DNA of 64,000 nucleotides, taken from assembly GCF_037031285.1 (NCBI RefSeq), contig NZ_JAYEZO010000001.1, forward strand, positions 1,612,001-1,676,000, given 5' to 3'. Of this stretch, positions 43,584 through 62,812 are shown in pieces (position 1 is the first letter of the stretch; each line of letters starts with the position of its first letter). The translations under genes were made by a program, and so were the position numbers. The stretch comes from Halobellus sp. LT62. Its GTDB lineage: Archaea; Halobacteriota; Halobacteria; Halobacteriales; Haloferacaceae. The notes beneath the pieces were generated by a model. The model was given only the letters and a program-made list of their open reading frames with translations. It did not search any database and was not told the DNA's origin.

Positions 43584-43889
43584 TCACCCTCCTAACCGAT
43601 CAGAGTTGGTCCCGGCGACGTAGCGTCGCTCCCAATATCGGCGATCCCGGAGCGCCTCACGCCCCGCGTCCGTGAGTGAGTACTCGTTCGTTCGCCCGTT
43701 TTTGCTCCCCTTCTCGACGTACCCGTATTCGACGAGTTGATTCAGATTCGTGTACACACGCCCCGCGAGCAAGTTGCGTCCCTGCGTTTCTTCGAGCTCC
43801 GTTTTGATAGTCTGTCCGGAAGTCTCGCTCATCCCTCGCACGACGAAAAGGAGATCGCGCTGAATAGCGGTCAATTGGTGAACCTCCAT
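43584..43889 (-). CDS. PadR-family transcriptional regulator
   Basis: 101 residues from ATG 43889; the extension to 43961 is not PadR-like. Winged helix with LTAIQRDLLFVVRGM, the GRVYTNLNQLVEYGYVEKGSKNGRTNEYSLTDAGREAL core typical of haloarchaeal PadR proteins, and no C-terminal dimer helix beyond a short tail. It stands between the rhodanese gene and the start of the glycosylation locus; its targets are unknown. Confidence 0.88.
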   Translation of the reverse strand: MEVHQLTAIQRDLLFVVRGMSETSGQTIKTELEETQGRNLLAGRVYTNLNQLVEYGYVEKGSKNGRTNEYSLTDAGREALRDRRYWERRYVAGTNSDRLGG

Positions 43890-44132: not shown

Positions 44133-44150
44133 TTATCCCTCCCATAGTAA
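44133..44150 (+). promoter_or_regulatory. TTAY-N7-ATARTAA promoter element, phosphohexomutase gene
   Basis: TTATCCCTCCCATAGTAA, 27 nt before ATG 44178; the right half takes the TATA position. Confidence 0.65.
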
Positions 44151-44177: not shown

Positions 44178-45515
44178 ATGTTCGGAACGAGTGGCGTCCG
44201 CGGGACGATCGGAGAGGAAATCACTGCGGATCTGACGCTATCGCTGGGACGGGCCCTCGGGAGTGAGAGGTCCGATCTCATCGTCGTCGGGCGCGATGCG
44301 CGCACGAGCGGGGAGATGCTCGAACACGCGTTCATCGCGGGTGTCACGGAGTGCGGGGCCGACGTAATCCGCATCGGGACGAACTCGACGCCGACGATTG
44401 CGCGGTCGGCAGAGTGGCTGGGGGCCGACGCCAGCGCGGCGATCACGGCGTCGCACAACCCGCCAACCGACAACGGCGTGAAGTTGTGGACGAGTTCCGG
44501 CCGGGCCTTCGGACGCGATCGACGCGAGCGTATCGAGCGCCGCATTCGTGACGAGAAATACGAGTTTGCAGCGTGGAACGGGATCGGGTCCATTCAAGAA
44601 CGAGACACGTACGAACGCCACCGTCAGGAGCTCCGAACGAGCGTCGATCTCGAAACTCCGCTCTCCGTCGTTGTCGGGATCGGGAACGGAACCGGCCGGT
44701 TGACGGCGGACGTTCTCGCGGATCTCGGGTGTACGGTCTCAACGCTCAACGGACAGCGCGACGGGCGTTTTCCCAGTCGGCCCAGTGAACCCACCGCCGA
44801 GGCCATTCGTCCGCTCCGAACGCACGTTGAAGCCGTCGGTGCCGACCTTGGAATCGCACACGACGGGGACGCCGATCGGATGATCGCGGTCGACGGTGAC
44901 GGGCGCGTCGTCGCGGGCGACACGCTTCTATCCGTGTTCGCTCGGGAGGCGGCGGCCGAAGGGGATCAAATCGCCGTTCCCGTCAACACGAGTCTCGCGG
45001 TCGACGACGCCGTCGCTGCCGTTGGTGCGGACGTCGTTCGGACACGAGTCGGCGACACGTTCGTCGCCGAGCGCTGCGCCGAATCGAACGTCGTTTTCGG
45101 CGGCGAACCCTCGGGGGCGTGGATCTGGAGCGAGGAGACGCCCTGTCCCGACGGCACGCTCGCGGCATGCAAACTCGTCGAACTCGTGTCCCGCCGTGGG
45201 CCGCTGGCAGACCTTACCGACGAGATCGACGGGTATCCACTGCGTCGGGGAAGCCTCAGAACGGATCACAAGCGGCGCGTTCTCGACCGGATTGAAGCGC
45301 CGCTCCGCGCGGGGTACGAGCGGATCGACGACCGCGACGGGATCCGCGTCGAGACCGATAACGGGTGGTTCCTCATTCGAGCGAGCGGAACGCAACCGCT
45401 CGTCCGAGTGACTGCCGAAGCGCGAACTGACGCCGAAGCGGACAGGCTGTTCGACGAGGCGATGGCGATCGTCGAAGAGCGCGCCGATCTTGCTTCGGCA
45501 CCCGACCGCGCGTGA
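44178..45515 (+). CDS. Phosphohexomutase (phosphomannomutase/phosphoglucomutase/GlmM type)
   Basis: 445 residues, normal for the family. All four functional loops are present: catalytic Ser92 in ITASHNPPTDNG, the Mg loop HDGDADRM, the sugar-binding GGEPSG, and the phosphate loop RASGTQPLVRV. It interconverts hexose 6- and 1-phosphates, supplying the sugar-1-phosphate used by the nucleotidyltransferase gene at 47179. It opens the glycosylation locus and carries the shared promoter element. A degenerate paralogue lies at 48614-49948. Confidence 0.92.
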   Translation: MFGTSGVRGTIGEEITADLTLSLGRALGSERSDLIVVGRDARTSGEMLEHAFIAGVTECGADVIRIGTNSTPTIARSAEWLGADASAAITASHNPPTDNGVKLWTSSGRAFGRDRRERIERRIRDEKYEFAAWNGIGSIQERDTYERHRQELRTSVDLETPLSVVVGIGNGTGRLTADVLADLGCTVSTLNGQRDGRFPSRPSEPTAEAIRPLRTHVEAVGADLGIAHDGDADRMIAVDGDGRVVAGDTLLSVFAREAAAEGDQIAVPVNTSLAVDDAVAAVGADVVRTRVGDTFVAERCAESNVVFGGEPSGAWIWSEETPCPDGTLAACKLVELVSRRGPLADLTDEIDGYPLRRGSLRTDHKRRVLDRIEAPLRAGYERIDDRDGIRVETDNGWFLIRASGTQPLVRVTAEARTDAEADRLFDEAMAIVEERADLASAPDRA

Positions 45516-45720
45516 GGATTCGGGCGTATTATGATAGTACTCCTATAGTATTCGATGGTTTCTTCGGCTATTTAATTCGTGTATCTCGATTTGGGATTTA
45601 TCCTCGTGGCACTGAAATCGAGTGATTCTGTGTGCTTACCGATCACACGACTATATCAACACTGCATATGTGAAGGACGTTCTTCTCGGGGATCCGGTAC
45701 GTCTTTCGATACGAACGACA
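45516..45720. other. Upstream region of the secreted peptidase gene
   Basis: About 205 bp, AT-rich. GATAGTACTCCTATAGTAT near 45535 partly resembles the shared promoter element of this locus, and an ACTATATC lies near 45650. Neither fixes the start firmly. Confidence 0.35.
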
Positions 45721-47088
45721 GTGAATCCACAACTAACTCGACGCCGTTTTCTCACGGCCACCGGAGGGCTCGCGCTCGTCGGCGCGGCCGGAACGCAGCC
45801 CGTCTCTGCCAGCTTTTCGCCGGGTGCCGTCGGAACCGCACCGCACCTCAGCGATCGATTGTACCCGACGATGGGAACGGACGACAACAATCCCACGCTG
45901 GTCGTCTACGTCAACTTTCTCTCGGAAGCCTCACAGTACTTCGTACAGCACAATTTGGAGGATATCGTCCGCGAGTACGTGGCCCCGGGCCACCTCAATC
46001 TCGAGGTGCGGTTCCTCTCGTATCGACCGGACGACGTCGGCACGTACCTCGTCGGCGATGACGAGGGAGAGGCCCGTGCTGCGCGCGCCGCCCACGGCGT
46101 CTGGGACGTCGAATCGGAGAACTTCTGGACGTTCTTCGAGTTTATGTTCTGGAACTTCACGACGAAGACGTACACTCACTCCCGGTTGGAGGCGTATATG
46201 GACCTCGCGGGCGTCAGAAACGTCACGAAGATTGCCAACCGGGCATACAGGGACCGATACGACGCACTCGTTCGCGGCGCGACCGACGACGCAGTCCGGT
46301 ACGGGATCTCTGACGTGCCGCGAATCCGCCTACTCCGCGATCACAAGCACGGGAACTATGCCGGTGTTCTCGGCTGGATTCAGAAGCGCCTCGACAGAGC
46401 CAACGAAGGGTCGGTTCGGACCCACTCGCTGCTTCCGGGGACCACCTACGAGACGCCGGTGTACGTCATCGAATCGGGGAGGCCCGGGCCGACGGCGTTC
46501 GTCGTCGGCGGGATTCACGGTGAAGAACCGGAGGGATACACCGCCGCGAGGAACGTGACTCGGCTCCGACCGACGGGCGGGAAACTCGTCGTCGTTCCCT
46601 ACGCGAACAAACCCGCCATCGATATCGGAGCGCGGTACACGACCGACGGCGACCTCAACCAACAGTTCCCGACGGGAGAGGAGCCGTCGTCGACTCTCGC
46701 CCGCGCGCTCTGGGACGAAATCCGTTCGCACGACCCGGACGTCGTCGTCGACCTCCACAGTTCGAGCGGCATCTACAAGCACGACGGCAAGGTCGGACAG
46801 GCCATCTTCCCGACTCCTGCGACGCCCGAGAACGCGGTGAGAACCTGCGAATACCTCAACGATCAGTACTTGGAACTCTCGGAGTACCCGACGTACTACG
46901 ACTTCGATTGCGGGAACACCTTGGACGGATCGCATCCGCGACTCGTTCACAAGGTGTACGGCGACCTCCGCCTCCCGGGATATATCGTGGAGACGACCCG
47001 AAAGGAGACTCACTTCGAGGAGGCAGTGACGTGGGAACTCGCCGTGGCGCGCGACCTGCTCTGGCGGCACGGTCTCCTGTACGGATAA
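45721..47088 (+). CDS. Tat-exported protein: thioredoxin-fold-like domain fused to M14/AstE-type zinc hydrolase
   Basis: 455 residues from GTG 45721, which places a Tat signal right at the start (TRRRFLTATGGLALVGAAG, cleavage after VSA). The frame is open 33 codons further upstream without signal character. The first domain (about 50-200) resembles a DsbA/thioredoxin fold (TLVVYVNFLSEASQYF, then YGISDVPRIRLL with its cis-Pro-like VP) but has no CxxC, so it cannot act as a redox enzyme. The second (about 225-450) is a zinc carboxypeptidase or aspartoacylase-like domain with GGIHGEEPEGY (His and Glu ligands) and VVVDLHSSSG (third His). Substrate unknown; surface glycoprotein processing is a guess from context. 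Confidence 0.8.
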   Translation: MNPQLTRRRFLTATGGLALVGAAGTQPVSASFSPGAVGTAPHLSDRLYPTMGTDDNNPTLVVYVNFLSEASQYFVQHNLEDIVREYVAPGHLNLEVRFLSYRPDDVGTYLVGDDEGEARAARAAHGVWDVESENFWTFFEFMFWNFTTKTYTHSRLEAYMDLAGVRNVTKIANRAYRDRYDALVRGATDDAVRYGISDVPRIRLLRDHKHGNYAGVLGWIQKRLDRANEGSVRTHSLLPGTTYETPVYVIESGRPGPTAFVVGGIHGEEPEGYTAARNVTRLRPTGGKLVVVPYANKPAIDIGARYTTDGDLNQQFPTGEEPSSTLARALWDEIRSHDPDVVVDLHSSSGIYKHDGKVGQAIFPTPATPENAVRTCEYLNDQYLELSEYPTYYDFDCGNTLDGSHPRLVHKVYGDLRLPGYIVETTRKETHFEEAVTWELAVARDLLWRHGLLYG

Positions 47089-47133: not shown

Positions 47134-47151
47134 TTATCTCACCGATAATAA
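47134..47151 (+). promoter_or_regulatory. TTAY-N7-ATARTAA promoter element, nucleotidyltransferase gene
   Basis: TTATCTCACCGATAATAA, 27 nt before ATG 47179, the same distance as at the phosphohexomutase gene. Confidence 0.7.
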
Positions 47152-47178: not shown

Positions 47179-48360
47179 ATGCAGGCAATTATACTCGCCG
47201 CCGGACGCGGGACTCGAATGCGACCGTTATCGAACGCGACGCCAAAACCGATGCTTTCGGTCGCCGGCCGGCCAATCGCCGAGCACACCGCTGACGCGGC
47301 GGTCGAAGCGGGAGCCGACGAACTCCTGTTCGTCGTCGGTCACGGCCAACACCGCGTGCGAGATCATTTCGGGGCTGCCCACCGGGACGTTCCTGTCACG
47401 TACGCCGTCCAATCAAAACAGCGCGGAACCGCACATGCTGTTCACGCCGCGAAAGAGCATATCGATGGGCCGTTCGCAGTCCTCTCCGGCGACGCCCTCT
47501 ACGATTCCAACGGCATCGTCAGACTGTTCGAGGCCGCACCGAGTGTCGCTTCTATCCGCGTTCCGGACCCGGGGAACTACGGAGTGTTGACCGTGGCCGA
47601 CGGTGCAGTGACCGATATCATCGAGAAACCGGACGCGCCACAGAACGACCTCGTGAACGCGGGCGCGTACGTCTTCCCGGCTGAGGTGCGCGACGCTCTC
47701 GACGTTCCCGAGAGCGAGCGCGGCGAGCGCGAACTCACCGACGTGCTCGAACGTGTCATCGCGAACTTCAACGTCACTTCGGTGACGCTCGATCGGTGGA
47801 TGGACGTCGGGCGGCCGTGGGAACTCCTCGAAGCGAACGAGTGGAAACTCGGAACGATCGATCGACGGGTCGACGGCGACGTGAGTGACGACACTACGAT
47901 TCGCGGAGACGTCGTCGTCGAGGCTGGTGCGACGATCCGAGAGGGAAGCGTCATCGACGGACCGGCGGTCGTGTCCTCCGGCGCGGAAGTCGGCCCGAAC
48001 GCGTACGTCCGTGGGCGGACGTTTCTCGGCCCAAACGTCAGCGTTGAACACGCAGTCGAGATCGAAAACAGCGTTCTCCTCGCGGATACCCGGGTCGGTC
48101 ACCACTCCTACGTCGGCGACAGCGTCGTCGGGCGAGAGGTCGATTTCGGCCCCGGACTCAAGGTGGTCAACCGCTGTCAGGACGGGAGCGACGTCGTCGT
48201 CACGGTCAAAGACGACCGCGTCTCGACCGGTCGGAAAAGTTTCGGCGTCATCGTCGGTGACGAGGTCGAGACGGGAATTGACGCCACGCTCGACGCCGGC
48301 GTGAAACTTTCCAGCGGGACTGCGACCCCGGCCGGCGAAACAGTGACCCGAGACCGATAG
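47179..48360 (+). CDS. Bifunctional-type sugar-1-phosphate nucleotidyltransferase
   Basis: 393 residues. The N-terminal Rossmann domain opens with IILAAGRGTRMRPLSNATPKPM, the NTP-binding signature, followed by the nucleotide site GTAHAVHAAKE, LSGDALYD and IEKPDAPQNDLVNAG. The C-terminal left-handed beta-helix (about 245-390) has hexapeptide repeats (DTTIRGDVVVEAGATIREGSVI), as in GlmU-like archaeal enzymes. It makes an NDP-sugar for glycan assembly and would use the product of the mutase at 44178. The acetyltransferase activity of the beta-helix cannot be confirmed. Confidence 0.9.
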   Translation: MQAIILAAGRGTRMRPLSNATPKPMLSVAGRPIAEHTADAAVEAGADELLFVVGHGQHRVRDHFGAAHRDVPVTYAVQSKQRGTAHAVHAAKEHIDGPFAVLSGDALYDSNGIVRLFEAAPSVASIRVPDPGNYGVLTVADGAVTDIIEKPDAPQNDLVNAGAYVFPAEVRDALDVPESERGERELTDVLERVIANFNVTSVTLDRWMDVGRPWELLEANEWKLGTIDRRVDGDVSDDTTIRGDVVVEAGATIREGSVIDGPAVVSSGAEVGPNAYVRGRTFLGPNVSVEHAVEIENSVLLADTRVGHHSYVGDSVVGREVDFGPGLKVVNRCQDGSDVVVTVKDDRVSTGRKSFGVIVGDEVETGIDATLDAGVKLSSGTATPAGETVTRDR

Positions 48361-48613: not shown

Positions 48614-49948
48614 TTACGTGGTAACCGCCGGCTGCTCGTCGCCGACCAAAGAAGTAACGCGCTCGAACAACTGCTTTGCGCTGCGCCTCGATGTCCCCTC
48701 TGCAGTCACCTGAAGGGCAGGTTCGGTTCGATCCGGCCTGACGACGAACCAAGCGTCGCCGGTTTCGCCGAGCACGCAGCCGTCAGTGGAGACGGATTCG
48801 AAGCGTTCCTTCGCGTCTGCGGCGACCCGGATCATCTCGCTGGCGAGACTGTCAACCCCGAATGACTTACAATAGAACGGATACGCAGGAACGTCCGTGA
48901 GCTGCTCCGAGAGAGCCGCCCCGTCGTCAACGAGCCTAGCGAGGTTAATCGCCGACAGCGCGGCGTCCGGACAGGGCGACTCCTCCGGCCACTGGTGGAC
49001 GCCGTTCGGGTCACCGCCGAAGACGACGTTTGCGGACCCTTCCGGACGTGGCCAAGAGCTCTGCTCCGCCTCGGGCTTGGAGATCTGTCCCCCGGCGTCG
49101 GCCACGACGTCGTCGATCCGTCGACTCGCTCCTTGGGGGATCGCAACGCACGCGTTACGGCCTGCGTCGCGGACCGCGCGTCGCGCGAGCAACGCCACTA
49201 GCGAGTTGCCCTCGATGAGCTCTCCGCGTTCATCGACAACGACCAACCGCTCCGCGTCGACGTCGTGTGCGACGCCGAAGTCAGCGTCGGAGGTCGCGAC
49301 CGCACGGCGCAGCGTCGCGCACACGTCGTCGTCCGGCGAGATGCGTCCCTGCGGGAGCGCGTCGTCGCCGGTGCCGGCGAGGCGGTTCACCTCACATCCG
49401 AGACGACCGAGAGCCTCGACCGTGACAGGGGTCTCGTGCTCGCCGACAGCCACGACTACGCGTGTATCGGAGAACGTCGGACGATTCTTGCAGAGTCGGT
49501 CGACGTGATGGGCGGTGGCGTCCTCCCAGCGGCGTTCCGATCCCAATTCCTCCCACGACGCGATGTCGGCTGTCGATCGGTTGACCCGGCGGACGATTTC
49601 GCTCTGCTGCTTCCACGAGAGCGGGGACCCGTCTCCGTCAAACAGCTTCAGACTGGTGCGTTCGGGTCGGCCGTCGACAGCGACGACCGCGACGCCGACG
49701 TCACCGCCGAGCCGCCTGACACCGTTCGCGACCGTTGGGCCGGCCGTCTCCCCGAGTCGAACCACCGTCCCACCGCACTCGCGGACCCCGGTGGAGACGG
49801 CGTCGGCCAAGAGCCGTGCGCTCTCGCTGGGGGAATGTCCGAGGACGACCTCGTCGCGGTTGCTGGTCAGGGCACGGCCGGTCTTGAGGGCGAGTTTCGC
49901 GGTCACGTGGGAACCGTACGTACCTCGGATACGGGCTGATGCGAACAT
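48614..49948 (-). CDS. Degenerate phosphohexomutase paralogue, probable pseudoenzyme
   Basis: 444 residues, colinear along its whole length with the active mutase at 44178 (MFASARIRGTYGSHV against MFGTSGVRGTIGEEI). The catalytic loop TASHNP is replaced by VAVDGR, so the phosphorylated Ser is missing (Val91). The Mg loop DGDADR has become DVDAER, the sugar loop GGEPSG is GGDPNG, and the phosphate loop RASGTQP is RPDRTEP. The open frame and codon use are intact, so it is kept as a protein, not a decaying gene. It has its own copy of the shared promoter element at 49975-49992. A binding or regulatory role, or an altered activity, is inferred. Confidence 0.85.
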   Translation of the reverse strand: MFASARIRGTYGSHVTAKLALKTGRALTSNRDEVVLGHSPSESARLLADAVSTGVRECGGTVVRLGETAGPTVANGVRRLGGDVGVAVVAVDGRPERTSLKLFDGDGSPLSWKQQSEIVRRVNRSTADIASWEELGSERRWEDATAHHVDRLCKNRPTFSDTRVVVAVGEHETPVTVEALGRLGCEVNRLAGTGDDALPQGRISPDDDVCATLRRAVATSDADFGVAHDVDAERLVVVDERGELIEGNSLVALLARRAVRDAGRNACVAIPQGASRRIDDVVADAGGQISKPEAEQSSWPRPEGSANVVFGGDPNGVHQWPEESPCPDAALSAINLARLVDDGAALSEQLTDVPAYPFYCKSFGVDSLASEMIRVAADAKERFESVSTDGCVLGETGDAWFVVRPDRTEPALQVTAEGTSRRSAKQLFERVTSLVGDEQPAVTT

Positions 49949-49974: not shown

Positions 49975-49992
49975 TTACTATCGACCAGATAA
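49975..49992 (-). promoter_or_regulatory. TTAY-N7-ATARTAA promoter element, mutase-like gene
   Basis: Minus strand TTATCTGGTCGATAGTAA, 26 nt before ATG 49948. Confidence 0.65.
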
Positions 49993-51118: not shown

Positions 51119-51136
51119 TTATCTGACCCATAATAA
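51119..51136 (+). promoter_or_regulatory. TTAY-N7-ATARTAA promoter element, aminotransferase operon
   Basis: TTATCTGACCCATAATAA. It lies 136 nt before the aminotransferase ATG, much further than at the other genes, so the transcript would carry a leader of about 110 nt that includes a possible short reading frame (51187-51276). Confidence 0.6.
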
Positions 51137-51186: not shown

Positions 51187-51276
51187 ATGAGAGGCACACA
51201 TCGAAACCAGAACAGAGCCGAGCAGTCCGCGGGTGACACCGCGATCGAACCGAACCGGGAGGGGCCACGTCGATGA
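51187..51276 (+). CDS. Possible 29-codon leader peptide
   Basis: ATG 51187 to TGA 51274-51276. The TGA overlaps the aminotransferase ATG as ATGA, the coupling seen elsewhere in this window. The product begins MRGTHRNQNRAEQ and is basic and hydrophilic. It may only serve to couple translation, or be chance. Confidence 0.3.
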   Translation: MRGTHRNQNRAEQSAGDTAIEPNREGPRR

Positions 51277-52412
51277 CCGATCGGATCTCGATCGCCGACC
51301 CGGAACTCGGAGACACGGAACTCGCTAACGTGAAGTCGGTCATCGAGTCCGGGATGCTCGCAGACGGTCCGGAAGTTCGCGACTTCGAGGTCGCGTTCGC
51401 GGACTACTGCGACGTCGGGCACGGCGTCGCGACGTCGAACGGGACGACCGCGCTACACACGGCGCTCGAAGCCGTGGGCGTCGAACCGGGCGACCGAGTA
51501 ATCACCACGCCGTTCTCGTTCGTCGCCACAGCGAACGCGATACGTATCGCCGGGGGCGACCCCGTATTCGCCGACATCGACCCGGAGACGTTCAATCTCG
51601 ATCCCGATCGGGTCGAGGCTATGCTCGAAGCTCTTGACGGCGACGTGGAGGCGATGGTCGTCGTCCACCTGTACGGTCTCTCAGCACCGATGGGTCGCCT
51701 TCGTAGCATCGCCGACAAATACGACGTGGCCGTCATCGAGGACGCCGCGCAGGCGCACGGCGCGAGCTACCGTGGGGACCCGGTGGGGTCGCTCGGGGAC
51801 GTCGCGTGCTTCTCCTTCTATCCGACGAAGAATATGACCACCGGCGAGGGTGGGATGATCGTCACCGACGACGAAGCCATCGCTCGGCGGGCGGCGAGTT
51901 TCATCAACCACGGGCGGGAGTCCGACGGCTACCGTCACGTCTCGGTCGGCCACAACTTCCGGATGACGAGCGTCGCGGCGGCGATGGGTCGCGCTCAGCT
52001 CGATCGGCTCCCCGAGTTCGTCGAACGTCGTCGTGAGAACGCGTCGCGTCTCGACGATCTGCTCGCAGACACGGACGCAGTCACGCCCGCGGTCCCGGAC
52101 GGATACGAACACGCCTACCACCAGTACACGATCCGCGTTGGCAATCGAGCGGACGTGGCCGAACAACTCGACGAGCGGGGTATCGGAACCGGTGTATACT
52201 ACCCACGGTGCATCCACAACCAACCAGCTTACGACATCTACGACGCTCAGGTGCCGAACGCAGAACGGGTTACAGACCAAGTGCTCTCATTGCCAGTCCA
52301 CCCCGCTCTCGAAGATAAAGACGTTTCGCGAGTCGGAACCGTCCTCCGCGATGAAGTGTCGATCGTCTCGCCCGAGGATCCGATCGCTGTCGTGGAGGTG
52401 GCCAATGACTGA
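51273..52412 (+). CDS. DegT/DnrJ/EryC1/StrS-family sugar aminotransferase
   Basis: 379 residues. PLP-binding features: SNGTTALHTALEAVGV near the N-terminus, the IEDAAQAHGASYRGDPVGSLGDVACFSF segment with Asp and Gln contacts, and the Schiff-base Lys in YPTKNMTTGEGGM. Family members move an amino group onto a keto-sugar nucleotide to make amino sugars. The next gene, a Gfo/Idh oxidoreductase, overlaps it by eight bases, the usual partner that oxidises the sugar to the keto form. Together they point to an amino-sugar component of a surface glycan. Confidence 0.92.
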   Translation: MTDRISIADPELGDTELANVKSVIESGMLADGPEVRDFEVAFADYCDVGHGVATSNGTTALHTALEAVGVEPGDRVITTPFSFVATANAIRIAGGDPVFADIDPETFNLDPDRVEAMLEALDGDVEAMVVVHLYGLSAPMGRLRSIADKYDVAVIEDAAQAHGASYRGDPVGSLGDVACFSFYPTKNMTTGEGGMIVTDDEAIARRAASFINHGRESDGYRHVSVGHNFRMTSVAAAMGRAQLDRLPEFVERRRENASRLDDLLADTDAVTPAVPDGYEHAYHQYTIRVGNRADVAEQLDERGIGTGVYYPRCIHNQPAYDIYDAQVPNAERVTDQVLSLPVHPALEDKDVSRVGTVLRDEVSIVSPEDPIAVVEVAND

Positions 52413-53394
52413 CGAGCGACTGAACGCCGGGGTCATCGGCGTCGGCAATATGGGACGGAACCACGCGCGCGCGTACGAGGAAATCGATGAGACGAACCTC
52501 GTCGGCGTGTTCGACGTCGACAGCGAACGCGCGACTGATGTGGCCGCCGAGTACGGAACGACCGCTCTGTCACTGGATGATCTGCTGGCGGTCGCCGACG
52601 TCGTCTCTGTCGCTGTTCCGACGCAGTTCCACTATGAGAACGTCAAACGCGCCCTCCAGTGTGACGTTCACGTGTTGGTCGAGAAGCCCTTCGTCGAAGA
52701 GCCCCGGAACGGCCGGGAGCTGATAGACCTCGCCGACGAACGCGACCTCGCCTTGCAGGTAGGACACATCGAGCGCTTTAATCCGGCGATCCAGACCCTT
52801 GGCGACCTCGTCGACGACCTCGACGTCTACGCGGTTTCGACTGAACGGCTCGGGCCGCCTGTCGACCGGATGATCGACGACACCGTCGTGATGGATCTGA
52901 TGATTCACGACCTCGACATCGTCCTCGACCTCGTCGACGGCGAAGTCGAATCATACAACGCGGTCGGGACGCCCAAGGGCCGCTACGCAAACGCGAATCT
53001 GCGGTTCGACTCGGGGGTGACCGCATCACTTACGACTAGTCGGGTCACCCAAGAGAAGGTTCGGAAGCTCACGATCTCGGCGGCCGACTGTCGGGTGAAA
53101 GTCGACTACATCGACCAGAGTATCGAGATCCACCGATCGTCCGTCCCCACCTACATCGACGACGAGTCGTTCCTCCGTCACCGTCACGAAAACATCGTCG
53201 AGACGCTCTCCGTCGAACAGGTCGAGCCCCTCAAGAGCGAACTCCGGTCTTTCGCGAACGCCGCCCGGTCCGGGTCGGATCCGATCGTCGACGGGAAGCA
53301 GGGCCTTCGTGTGTTACATTTGATAAAGTCTCTCGACGCAGAAACCGGGTCGACGGAGAATCGAAAGACACCGGTTCGAATCGACGCGGACTGA
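52405..53394 (+). CDS. Gfo/Idh/MocA-family NDP-sugar oxidoreductase
   Basis: 329 residues. The Rossmann start is AGVIGVGNMGRNHARAYEEI, followed by HVLVEKPFVEEPRNGRELI with the EKP catalytic Lys and VGHIERFNPAI. The C-terminal alpha/beta domain is typical. It probably makes the 3-keto sugar nucleotide used by the aminotransferase, as in WlbA-type pathways. The ATG lies inside the aminotransferase gene (overlap of eight bases), so the two are translationally coupled. Confidence 0.9.
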   Translation: MTDERLNAGVIGVGNMGRNHARAYEEIDETNLVGVFDVDSERATDVAAEYGTTALSLDDLLAVADVVSVAVPTQFHYENVKRALQCDVHVLVEKPFVEEPRNGRELIDLADERDLALQVGHIERFNPAIQTLGDLVDDLDVYAVSTERLGPPVDRMIDDTVVMDLMIHDLDIVLDLVDGEVESYNAVGTPKGRYANANLRFDSGVTASLTTSRVTQEKVRKLTISAADCRVKVDYIDQSIEIHRSSVPTYIDDESFLRHRHENIVETLSVEQVEPLKSELRSFANAARSGSDPIVDGKQGLRVLHLIKSLDAETGSTENRKTPVRIDAD

Positions 53395-56138: not shown

Positions 56139-57059
56139 TCAGGCGTCGTTCGTAACGCCGGCCCGGAGACCTTCGAGCGCGTTGAAGGCCAGCCCCGGTA
56201 GCTGTGACGGGGCGATCGTCGCGCCAGCGCGGAAGTAAGCCAGCGCGGTCCGGAACCGACCCTCGCGAAGATACGTCGACGCCAGCGCGTGCTTTTGGAC
56301 GCCGGTCACGTTGTACCCACGCGTTTCGAGTTCTACCACGTCCTCCGCGAACGTCTTGAGGAAGTGAGCGTTTGCGCGGCGAACCGCGTCCGCGCTCGGG
56401 CCGCCGGAGGGGTATCGACGTAACAGCGGCCCGTCGACGTATGCGATTTTGCCCTCCTTGAGCACGCGAACGAGGAACTCAGTGTCTTGATACCGGTCGA
56501 AGGATTCGTCGAATCCGCCGATCCGGTCGACGACATCGGACTCGACGACGAGCGTCGACCCTGCGCTGGTGTGGACGTTCTCCAAGAACACCTCCTTGAT
56601 GAGGCCTTCTCCCCCCTCTGCCCCCTCCCGTGAGGAGTGTCCGCCGACGAGCGATTTACACCGCTCCCAGAGGGAACTCGTCGCGCCGTCGTCGATAAGC
56701 GTCGTCCCGCAGTAGGCGGCGATCCACTCCTCGGAGCGCCGCTCTAGGGTCCGTATCTGTTGTTCGAGTTTTTCTGGAGCCCACTCGTCGTCGGAGTCGA
56801 GGAGCGCGATGTACTCGCCTATGGCGGCGTCGATACCCGTGTTCCGGGCGGCGCTCCCCCCGCGGTTCGTCTCGTGGGTGAGGTAGGTCACGCGGGAGTC
56901 GTCGTACGCGGTAACGACGGAGTCGGTGTCGTCGGTCGAAGCGTCGTCGACGACGATCACTTCCAGATCCGAGAGCGTCTGATCGAGTGCGCTGTCGATG
57001 GCACGCGGAAGGTCAGACGCGCGGTTGTACGTGGGAATGATGACGCTCACTGTAGGCAT
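56139..57059 (-). CDS. Family 2 glycosyltransferase
   Basis: 306 residues. GT-A fold start SVIIPTYNRASDLPRAIDSAL, VVDDASTDDT, NRGGSAARNTGIDAA and the metal-binding LLDSDDEW are all present, and GGFDESFDRYQDTEFLVRVL supplies the acceptor-side ED motif. It lacks membrane helices, so it probably works at the inner membrane face on a lipid-linked sugar. Its promoter carries the shared element. Confidence 0.92.
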   Translation of the reverse strand: MPTVSVIIPTYNRASDLPRAIDSALDQTLSDLEVIVVDDASTDDTDSVVTAYDDSRVTYLTHETNRGGSAARNTGIDAAIGEYIALLDSDDEWAPEKLEQQIRTLERRSEEWIAAYCGTTLIDDGATSSLWERCKSLVGGHSSREGAEGGEGLIKEVFLENVHTSAGSTLVVESDVVDRIGGFDESFDRYQDTEFLVRVLKEGKIAYVDGPLLRRYPSGGPSADAVRRANAHFLKTFAEDVVELETRGYNVTGVQKHALASTYLREGRFRTALAYFRAGATIAPSQLPGLAFNALEGLRAGVTNDA

Positions 57060-57093: not shown

Positions 57094-57111
57094 TTATTAT
57101 CGGGCGGGTAA
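57094..57111 (-). promoter_or_regulatory. TTAY-N7-ATARTAA promoter element, GT2 gene
   Basis: Minus strand TTACCCGCCCGATAATAA, 34 nt before ATG 57059. It is divergent from the element at 57132-57149, with 20 bp between them. Confidence 0.6.
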
Positions 57112-57131: not shown

Positions 57132-57149
57132 TTATCACTCGAATAATAA
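57132..57149 (+). promoter_or_regulatory. TTAY-N7-ATARTAA promoter element, MoxR gene
   Basis: TTATCACTCGAATAATAA, 25 nt before ATG 57175. Confidence 0.65.
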
Positions 57150-59223: not shown

Positions 59224-59241
59224 TAATTATCCGGCCGATAA
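59224..59241 (-). promoter_or_regulatory. TTAY-N7-ATARTAA-like promoter element, DUF4129 gene
   Basis: Minus strand TTATCGGCCGGATAATTA, one mismatch to the pattern, 64 nt before ATG 59159 and 16 nt before the alternative ATG 59207. Confidence 0.5.
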
Positions 59242-60385: not shown

Positions 60386-62812
60386 ATGAGACGGAATATG
60401 GTCACTGCGTTCCTCTCTATCGTGGGAGGACGCATCTTCATCGTGCTGTCCTCGGTGATACTAACGCCGATTCTCATCACGACCCTCGGATTCGAGCTGT
60501 ACGGGCGATACAGCACACTCACAGCGGTCTTCGGCATCTCGACGATCCTGATGAGTTCGGGGATCAACAGCGGCGCTCGCAAGTACCTCTCCGAGAACCG
60601 AACGCACCGGGACTGGGAGACTCACGTCTTCGGATACTATTTCCGCTTAGGAACCGTCCTAGCGGTGTTGACCGCGGTAGCCTTCGCCGCCGCGGCGCGG
60701 TTTGGAATCGTGACGAGGTACTTGGGCTCTGAGTACGTCGTCGGGTTCTACGGGCTGGCCGGACTGACCATTGCGACGCAGTTCCGCGAGTACTCACGAC
60801 GCGCGCTTATGGGGCTCAAACAGGAACACCGTTCGGAACCACTTCGGGTTCTGAACAAAGTCGGCTCCCGAATCGTTCTCATCGGTATCGCGTACCTCGG
60901 ATTCGAGATCGGCGGACTGATGGTCGGCCTCGTCGTCGTCAACAGCCTCGTCGCGCTGCTCGCGCTGTGGTGGCTCCGAACCAACGTTTCGCTACGCGGT
61001 ATCTTCAGTACGACACCGGAACGGTTCCCGACGAGAGAGCTGTTCAGCTTCAATCACCTCTCGGTGGTATATATGCTGTTTCTCACGTCGATGTACCACG
61101 TCGACGTGCTGATGCTCGCCTCGCACGTCACCGAGACACAGGTCGGATACTACAAGTCCGCGCTGGTCATCAGCCAGTTCCTCTGGGTCATTCCGCGATC
61201 GATCCAGTCGATGCTCATCCAGTCCGTTTCCGACCTGTGGGCGGCCGGCAGAACCGCGCAGATAACCGAGATCGCCTCGCGGGTGACCCGCTATGGGATG
61301 TTGGTCGTGATCCTGTTATCGATCGGGCTCGGGGCGCTGGCGAAGGACTTCGTCCCCCTCTACCTCGGCGAAGGGTCGATGCCCGTCGTTCTGCCGCTCC
61401 TTGTTCTCCTTCCCGGAACGATCGGATTTGCCGTCGTCAGGCCGATTCTCGCGATCAGTCACGCGAAGGCGGATATGAAACCGCTCATCGCGGCGACTGG
61501 TGCTGCGGCGCTGCTCAACCTCGTTTTGAACGCTGTTCTCATCCCCCGATACGGAATCACTGGGGCGGCCATCGCGACGACGACGGGGTATTCCTCGCTC
61601 CCGATATTCAACCTGTTCAGCGCGCGCTATCTCGGATTCAAGCCGTTCGCCGACGCGCGGATCGGCCGCGTGCTCGCGACGGGGCTAATCGCGGGCATCC
61701 CGATCGTCCTGCTCTCGATGACGCTTGACCAACGCCTCCTCGCGCTGGCAGTCGTCCCACCGGTCGGGTTCGTCGTCTTCGTGACGGTGGCGTTTCTGCT
61801 TGGATCGGTCGACGTTGACGAGGCGCTCGACGTACTGTCGTCGCTCCCGGGTCCGATCGGAGCGCGCGCCAGCGCCATCCACGGACGTCGTACCGGACTC
61901 GGTGGTGACGGGCCGTCTTGGGGGAACGAGTCGTGGGGCGACCGTCACAAGGACACGCTCCAGCGCGGCCTTCTCGTGGTCGGGGTGCTCCTCTCGCTCT
62001 CCGGCGTCGTACTCGCCGTGGGAACACCCGGAGTCGACGTCGGACCGTCGGTCGATGGTGACTCCCCGGTTCCGGGGGTGAACGCCACAACGCCGGTCAC
62101 GGACACCCCGGTGCCGACGACGACCGAATCGGGGACCTCGACGGCCACCGCGACCGAGACTCCAGATCCGTCGACGCGGACTGAAACAGAGAGTACGACC
62201 GAGACAGCCACGTCGACGGAGACGACTGAATCGGACGACGACGGCGGATTCTTCGGTGGCGGCGACGGAACGCCCACTGAAACGGCCACAGCGTCGGAGA
62301 CGGCGACACCCGAAACTTCCACGACGTCGGAGACTACGACGACGCAGACGTCGACGACGGACACGACGAGTTCGCCGACCACGGATACCGCGACGACTAC
62401 CGAGTCCTCCACTACGGATACCGCGACTACCACTGAGTCGTCAACGACAACAACCGCAACCGCCACGGAATCATCAACGACGACTACCGCAACCATCACG
62501 GAATCATCGACCACGGACACTACGACGACGACTGAATCGTCCACGACGGCTACCGCAACCATCACGGAATCATCGACCACGGATACTGCGACGCCGACGG
62601 CGACAAACGAGACCACCGGAGATGGCACTTCGACAGCAACCACGACCGACTCCCCGACGACCACTGCCACGGAGACGTCCGACGGATCGCTCCTGATGAT
62701 ACAGCCGCTCTCTTCGATCGGGTCTTGGTGGGCACAGACCGGAGGAACGCTGATGTACCACTCTGCGCTCTTGGGATCGATTGGGATCTTGGCCGGGCGA
62801 AACCTACGGTAG
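60386..62812 (+). CDS. Oligosaccharide flippase (Wzx/MATE-fold) with Thr-rich repeat tail and extra helices
   Basis: 808 residues. The first 490 or so are a polysaccharide-biosynthesis flippase with about 12-14 helices (TAFLSIVGGRIFIVLSSVIL start; LLSIGLGALAKDFVPLYLG). Normal members end here. This one continues with a helix (about 528-552), a stretch of about 190 residues almost wholly Thr, Ser, Ala, Glu and Asp, and a final hydrophobic segment (YHSALLGSIGILAG). The tail contains six 11-residue repeats of the form ESSTTxTxTxT. It flips a lipid-linked oligosaccharide across the membrane; the tail would sit outside and is a likely O-glycosylated stalk. Confidence 0.88.
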   Translation: MRRNMVTAFLSIVGGRIFIVLSSVILTPILITTLGFELYGRYSTLTAVFGISTILMSSGINSGARKYLSENRTHRDWETHVFGYYFRLGTVLAVLTAVAFAAAARFGIVTRYLGSEYVVGFYGLAGLTIATQFREYSRRALMGLKQEHRSEPLRVLNKVGSRIVLIGIAYLGFEIGGLMVGLVVVNSLVALLALWWLRTNVSLRGIFSTTPERFPTRELFSFNHLSVVYMLFLTSMYHVDVLMLASHVTETQVGYYKSALVISQFLWVIPRSIQSMLIQSVSDLWAAGRTAQITEIASRVTRYGMLVVILLSIGLGALAKDFVPLYLGEGSMPVVLPLLVLLPGTIGFAVVRPILAISHAKADMKPLIAATGAAALLNLVLNAVLIPRYGITGAAIATTTGYSSLPIFNLFSARYLGFKPFADARIGRVLATGLIAGIPIVLLSMTLDQRLLALAVVPPVGFVVFVTVAFLLGSVDVDEALDVLSSLPGPIGARASAIHGRRTGLGGDGPSWGNESWGDRHKDTLQRGLLVVGVLLSLSGVVLAVGTPGVDVGPSVDGDSPVPGVNATTPVTDTPVPTTTESGTSTATATETPDPSTRTETESTTETATSTETTESDDDGGFFGGGDGTPTETATASETATPETSTTSETTTTQTSTTDTTSSPTTDTATTTESSTTDTATTTESSTTTTATATESSTTTTATITESSTTDTTTTTESSTTATATITESSTTDTATPTATNETTGDGTSTATTTDSPTTTATETSDGSLLMIQPLSSIGSWWAQTGGTLMYHSALLGSIGILAGRNLR
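62402..62599 (+). repeat. 33-bp minisatellite inside the flippase gene
   Basis: Six in-frame 33-bp units, each coding ESSTT plus six more Thr/Ala/Asp-rich residues. Units 3 to 6 are most alike (GAATCATCGACCACGGA and similar starts). The copy number could vary between strains by slippage without shifting the frame. Confidence 0.85.

Follow-up and report, generated by a model that had tools for sequence, protein, structure and literature searches.

A probable non-catalytic phosphoglucosamine mutase paralogue kept by selection in a putative surface-glycan cluster of Halobellus and Haloferax

The window analysed here is a stretch of 64,000 nucleotides from Halobellus sp. LT62. The gene at 48614-49948, referred to below as the pseudomutase, sits in a gene cluster of over 36 kb that extends past the end of the window. 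The gene families present in this cluster suggest that its product is a surface glycan. The genes considered are:

44178-45515 (+): active cluster-specific GlmM, with TASHN, DGDADR, GEPSG and RASGT intact
45622-47088 (+): thioredoxin-like and AstE/AspA-type zinc hydrolase protein between GlmM and GlmU, in the conserved block
47179-48360 (+): archaeal GlmU-type sugar-1-phosphate nucleotidylyltransferase/acetyltransferase (TIGR03992, 468 bits)
48614-49948 (-): predicted pseudo-phosphoglucosamine mutase (dead GlmM paralogue), 444 aa
50441-51046 (-): DUF7344 protein, a conserved neighbour
51273-52412 (+): DegT/DnrJ/EryC1 sugar aminotransferase, less than 11 kb from the pseudomutase in 9/9 genomes (see below)
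52405-53394 (+): Gfo/Idh/MocA oxidoreductase
56139-57059 (-): family 2 glycosyltransferase
60386-62812 (+): polysaccharide flippase-like membrane protein (Polysacc_synt)

The frame of the pseudomutase is intact over 444 codons, from ATG to stop. When the protein was compared with the NCBIfam model Arch_GlmM (TIGR03990), residues 1-435 were aligned with a score of 239.1 bits, below the equivalog cut-off of 439 bits, whereas the cluster GlmM reached 465 bits. The two proteins share 32 % identity from end to end. In the Pfam search, domains I and II of the pseudomutase scored above the cut-off, domain IV was weak and domain III gave no match. By fold and descent it belongs to the alpha-D-phosphohexomutase superfamily, of which the genome encodes six members; TASHN, DGDADR and RxSGT are kept in five of these, the pseudomutase being the sole exception. 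The original prediction of a full-length mutase paralogue with valine (Val91) in place of the phosphoserine was thus borne out.

A profile search of 170 genomes of the family gave a bimodal result, with nine matches of at least 808 bits and the next best at 411. These nine are complete orthologues, two from Halobellus and seven from a genus (g28) that we read as Haloferax because its members agree in identity and neighbourhood with plasmid records from H. gibbonsii and H. larsenii. Among close relatives, a scan of named genomes found the orthologue in Halobellus rufus alone (88 % identical to the window protein). No further orthologues were found among 391 genomes sampled from the class, and no relatives of the pseudomutase among the viral contigs searched. 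Genome G033 and others with similar matches of 38-43 % were rejected as orthologues, as their SHNP loop is intact or they lie outside the clade. On the phylogenetic tree, the pseudomutases form one clade with support of 100/100 on a long stem (1.6 changes per site); the family had a single origin, followed by slower change. RefSeq names the Haloferax orthologues phosphoglucosamine mutase; the one of H. gibbonsii is HfgLR_RS18575.

The positions that distinguish the pseudomutase are as follows:

49931-49933 (-): R6, an Arg in lid loop 0 at an otherwise invariant Gly (FGTSG[IV]RG to FASARIRG); Arg in 9/9 orthologues, Gly in 34/34 actives
49646-49687 (-): phosphoryl-transfer loop, residues 88-101; V91, D92 and G93 take the places of phosphoserine, His and Asn, and K101 is unchanged
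49247-49267 (-): metal loop HDVDAER, residues 228-234; the H. rufus copy has GVDAER, and Haloferax copies have DADADR or DPDADR
49061-49069 (-): domain-III loop, residues 294-296, where active GlmMs have an invariant VGD; VGD gone in 9/9
49001-49021 (-): sugar-binding loop FGGDPNG, residues 310-316; the Haloferax members have GEP[ST]G here
48710-48739 (-): phosphate loop RPDRTEPALQ, residues 404-413; all nine have R407 at an otherwise invariant Gly and retain R404 and T408

Compared motif by motif with active enzymes, the window protein has FASARIRG for FGTSGVRG at the start, VAVDGRPERTS for TASHNPPTDNG in the phosphoserine loop (Ser to Val91), DVDAER for DGDADR in the metal loop, AEQ for VGD in domain III, GDPNG for GEPSG in the sugar loop and RPDRTEP for RASGTQP in the phosphate loop. 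The phosphoserine and four loops belong to the established mechanism of the superfamily (PMC6443537, PMC7761743), and loops 0 and 4 form the lid over the active site (PMC7761743). In the alignment, the phosphoserine, the His next to it, the Asn and VGD are present in 34/34 active GlmM homologues and gone in 9/9 orthologues. The [TS]xSHN loop was likewise found in all 34 active homologues and in the remaining five mutases that this genome encodes; it is VAVDG in the window gene and occurs in 0/9 orthologues. Residues 6 (loop 0) and 407 (phosphate loop), Gly in every active protein, are Arg in all nine. R8 (the equivalent of the proposed general acid), K101, D231, R234, R404 and T408 are kept in 9/9.

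The two genera differ in the remaining loops. In the seven Haloferax copies the full metal triad (DxDxDR, 7/7), the phosphate anchors and GEP[ST]G are retained, which is not so in the two Halobellus copies (DVDAER in the window gene, GVDAER in H. rufus). The changes in the magnesium loop (DVDAER) and phosphate loop (RPDRTEP) that had been pointed out in the window gene are therefore real, but they are mostly specific to Halobellus and represent a second, lineage-specific step. What changed across the whole family is the loss of Ser, His, Asn and VGD and the gain of two arginines. Ligand residues were retained at 11/13 sites in the seven Haloferax members vs 56/98 other invariant sites (one-sided p = 0.05), and at 6/13 vs 44/98 in all nine (p = 0.58). 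Preferential retention of the pocket is thus marginal in Haloferax and disappears once the Halobellus members are counted, so we do not take it as established.

A structure model of the window protein was built from 12 sequences, the alignment depth including eight distant mutases from viral contigs (pLDDT 74.6, pTM 0.80). Residues 1-13, among them R6, are of low confidence. The model matches archaeal and bacterial mutases over their full length, the best match being 9ix8 (Z 39.7, 3.1 A over 420 residues). Other matches include the inactive PGM5, the CdaA complex of Bacillus GlmM, and the PMM/PGM phosphoserine mutants S108A and S108D, in which the fold is kept.

All nine orthologues have 444 codons and were aligned without gaps at 52-62 % identity. 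In six matched pairs of genomes, dN/dS of the pseudomutase was 0.195, 0.202, 0.206, 0.324, 0.257 and 0.215, compared with 0.217, 0.245, 0.101, 0.218, 0.160 and 0.173 for the cluster GlmM. The pseudomutase comparisons span dS of 0.9-1.5 with zero indels. At the protein level the pseudomutase diverges faster (52-62 % vs 71-73 % identity for the cluster GlmM). These values, together with conserved synteny and promoter, uphold the proposal that the intact frame is under selection. Pseudogene and sequencing-error readings of the window gene were dropped because nine intact frames agree. Since the catalytic residues are gone in all orthologues and selection is purifying, one strain with a nonsense codon being the exception, the protein fits the description of a pseudoenzyme. 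That strain is H. larsenii NCIM 5678, whose orthologue (L116:18001-19335) has an in-frame TGA at codon 112 in place of an otherwise invariant Trp112 and is annotated in RefSeq as two pieces.

A promoter element, TTATCNNNNCSATARTAA (pattern TTATC-N5-SATARTAA), was derived from three promoters in the window. With two or fewer mismatches allowed, seven sites were found in the window vs 0.18 expected, a number reached in 0/100 shuffles, which confirms the earlier suggestion that the gene has a promoter of a shared type. The sites are:

44133-44150 (+): TTATCCCTCCCATAGTAA, upstream of GlmM
47134-47151 (+): TTATCTCACCGATAATAA, upstream of GlmU
49975-49992 (-): TTATCTGGTCGATAGTAA, 44 bp upstream of the pseudomutase ATG, kept at -43/-44 in all orthologues read
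51119-51136 (+): between the DUF7344 gene and DegT
57094-57111, 57132-57149 and 59224-59241: further sites in the window

An exact search of the 3.2-Mb genome, with Y allowed at position 4, gave six matches, all within 36 kb of the cluster, and a reversed control pattern gave zero matches genome-wide. In two Haloferax genomes with the cluster, 4/4 matches lie inside it. In Halobellus and Haloferax alike, the element is located at -43 to -45 of the start codons of all three genes (pseudomutase, GlmM and GlmU), with 0-1 mismatches at the pseudomutase and two or three at the Haloferax GlmM and GlmU. Many copies contain an inverted TTATC/GATAA. The promoter could be a leaderless one with its TATA box in the 3' half of the element, and PadR (at 43584) and the DUF7344 and DUF7343 proteins are candidate regulators.

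The cluster is syntenic between the two genera, with the PadR-GlmM-AstE-GlmU block at its far end in Haloferax. The cluster-specific GlmM was detected in only 10/170 genomes, namely all nine with the pseudomutase and G339. Co-occurrence with the active copy, a check proposed at the outset, therefore holds in 9/9 genomes (hypergeometric p 4e-14); because the cluster is inherited as a unit and the genomes are related, the counts show linkage and not nine independent events. G339, from another genus of the family, carries the whole cluster in the Haloferax gene order (contig 3, 27-68 kb; L118, L130, L131) and has no pseudomutase. Orthologues absent or decaying in relatives would have spoken against a selected gene, and this is partly what was found: the gene occurs in two genera only, carries a nonsense codon in one strain and is missing from one complete cluster, but nine intact copies are under selection. 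From G339 and the nonsense codon we conclude that the pseudomutase is useful rather than indispensable.

Two further features of the cluster were observed. The protein at 45622-47088, encoded between GlmM and GlmU in the clusters of Halobellus, Haloferax and G339, has a twin-arginine-like N-terminus and combines a thioredoxin-like part with one of the AstE/AspA zinc hydrolase type. An aryl-sulfate sulfotransferase and a 567-aa protein with no Pfam match adjoin the pseudomutase in the H. gibbonsii group (L115:8906-11972, L074:10204-13267), on the side that faces the DegT block.

Taken from sequence comparison, the gene is very probably a dead mutase under selection that belongs to a surface-glycan cluster. 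It diverged once from a haloarchaeal GlmM and lost the phosphoserine chemistry, the copy then being kept by selection in one cluster and one promoter group. The four-domain mutase fold is probably retained and, at least in Haloferax, a phosphate- and metal-binding pocket may be as well. As to mechanism, we consider the chances close to balanced, if anything slightly below even, that the protein is a non-catalytic partner or regulator: it would bind a phosphosugar and act on the GlmM/GlmU step of the cluster, presumably the entry of the amino sugar into the cluster glycan. The two new arginines, one per lid loop, may alter ligand retention or lock the closed form, an idea that is not drawn from the model. 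A more specific proposal is a two-component GlmM made of an active subunit and a dedicated dead one, in which the dead subunit would bind glucosamine phosphate (or a bisphosphate) in an arginine-rich remodelled pocket and set the flux into one surface glycan. This proposal is speculative and rather unlikely to be correct.

Alternatively, the protein may be a structural subunit that forms a hetero-oligomer with the cluster GlmM and works by protein contact alone, with no ligand sensing. Bacillus GlmM acts through protein contact in the solved CdaA complexes (PDB 7olh, 7ojs, 9g69), and the co-occurrence with the cluster GlmM, the promoter type that the two genes have in common and the weak pocket retention of the Halobellus members are consistent with such a role. 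However, the cluster GlmM occurs without the pseudomutase in G339, and the phosphate anchors R404 and T408, as well as K101 and R8, would be needless for contact alone and are nevertheless kept in 9/9. We regard this explanation as unlikely.

A change of catalysis, for example to a phosphatase or transferase that uses other residues, is less probable still. The metal triad, sugar loop and phosphate anchors of the Haloferax members would suit it, as would the many fixed clade-specific residues, the two arginines included, and five Haloferax members have a Ser one residue past the lost one. The shifted Ser is missing in the other four members, however; of the metal residues, Asp229 is replaced by Gly in H. 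rufus and Asp233 by Glu in the two Halobellus copies, and no alternative nucleophile or general base common to all nine was recognised in the alignment.

It is very improbable that the paralogue has no present function and is decaying slowly as a passenger of the cluster. Its absence from the complete cluster of G339, the nonsense codon in one strain, a protein divergence faster than that of the cluster enzymes and the extra erosion in Halobellus are what decay would produce, but dN/dS of 0.2-0.3, the lack of indels over dS 0.9-1.5, nine intact frames and a promoter element at the same spacing in both genera disfavour it. The full-length fold match and partial pocket retention might be cited for a working mutase whose active site is unusual. 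This reading is scarcely credible, as all nine orthologues lack Ser, His and VGD and the mechanism of the superfamily requires the phosphoserine (PMC6443537, PMC7761743).

Returning to a dead mutase kept by selection, we compared it with three known systems. It resembles archaeal GlmM (TIGR03990) in end-to-end homology, four domains, the same fold and a setting of amino-sugar nucleotide synthesis, and differs in the missing phosphoserine, His, Asn and VGD, in its score (239 vs 439 bits) and in the two lid-loop arginines. The vertebrate PGM5 (aciculin), of the same superfamily, is also a kept inactive paralogue with lid loops 0 and 4 altered, and it retains substrate binding (PMC7761743). PGM5 keeps the catalytic serine, which is phosphorylated in the herring crystal (PMC7761743), whereas the pseudomutase has lost the serine itself, and their origin and setting are unrelated. 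Bacillus GlmM in its complex with the CdaA cyclase offers a parallel for a GlmM that binds another protein and has a role besides turnover, but it is an active enzyme, and the haloarchaeal protein has no known partner of this sort.

Literature searches on phosphoglucosamine mutase pseudoenzymes, haloarchaeal phosphohexomutases and GlmM in Haloferax N-glycosylation returned nothing on the pseudomutase. It is unmentioned in the genome paper of H. gibbonsii LR2-5, and the HFTV1 infection paper uses 'mutase' only for other enzymes. An inactive relative of this kind is already known in PGM5, but in the papers searched, a set with most subscription journals outside its coverage, we came across no prokaryotic, cluster-bound paralogue that has lost its phosphoserine.

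The family offers a clean case of a phosphohexomutase pseudoenzyme in which the phosphoserine itself is lost, and an evolutionary series in which the metal and sugar loops are kept in Haloferax and eroded in Halobellus. The RefSeq label on the Haloferax orthologues needs correcting, as it would mislead metabolic models. If true, the two-component GlmM would be a regulated phosphohexomutase system of a kind for which the papers searched gave no prokaryotic precedent. The genes that share the promoter element form a candidate regulon, one that would serve an archaeal surface glycan. The cluster of G339 is a natural comparison for the function of the pseudomutase, which can be tested by gene removal because one defined cluster holds both the active partner and a near-private promoter element.
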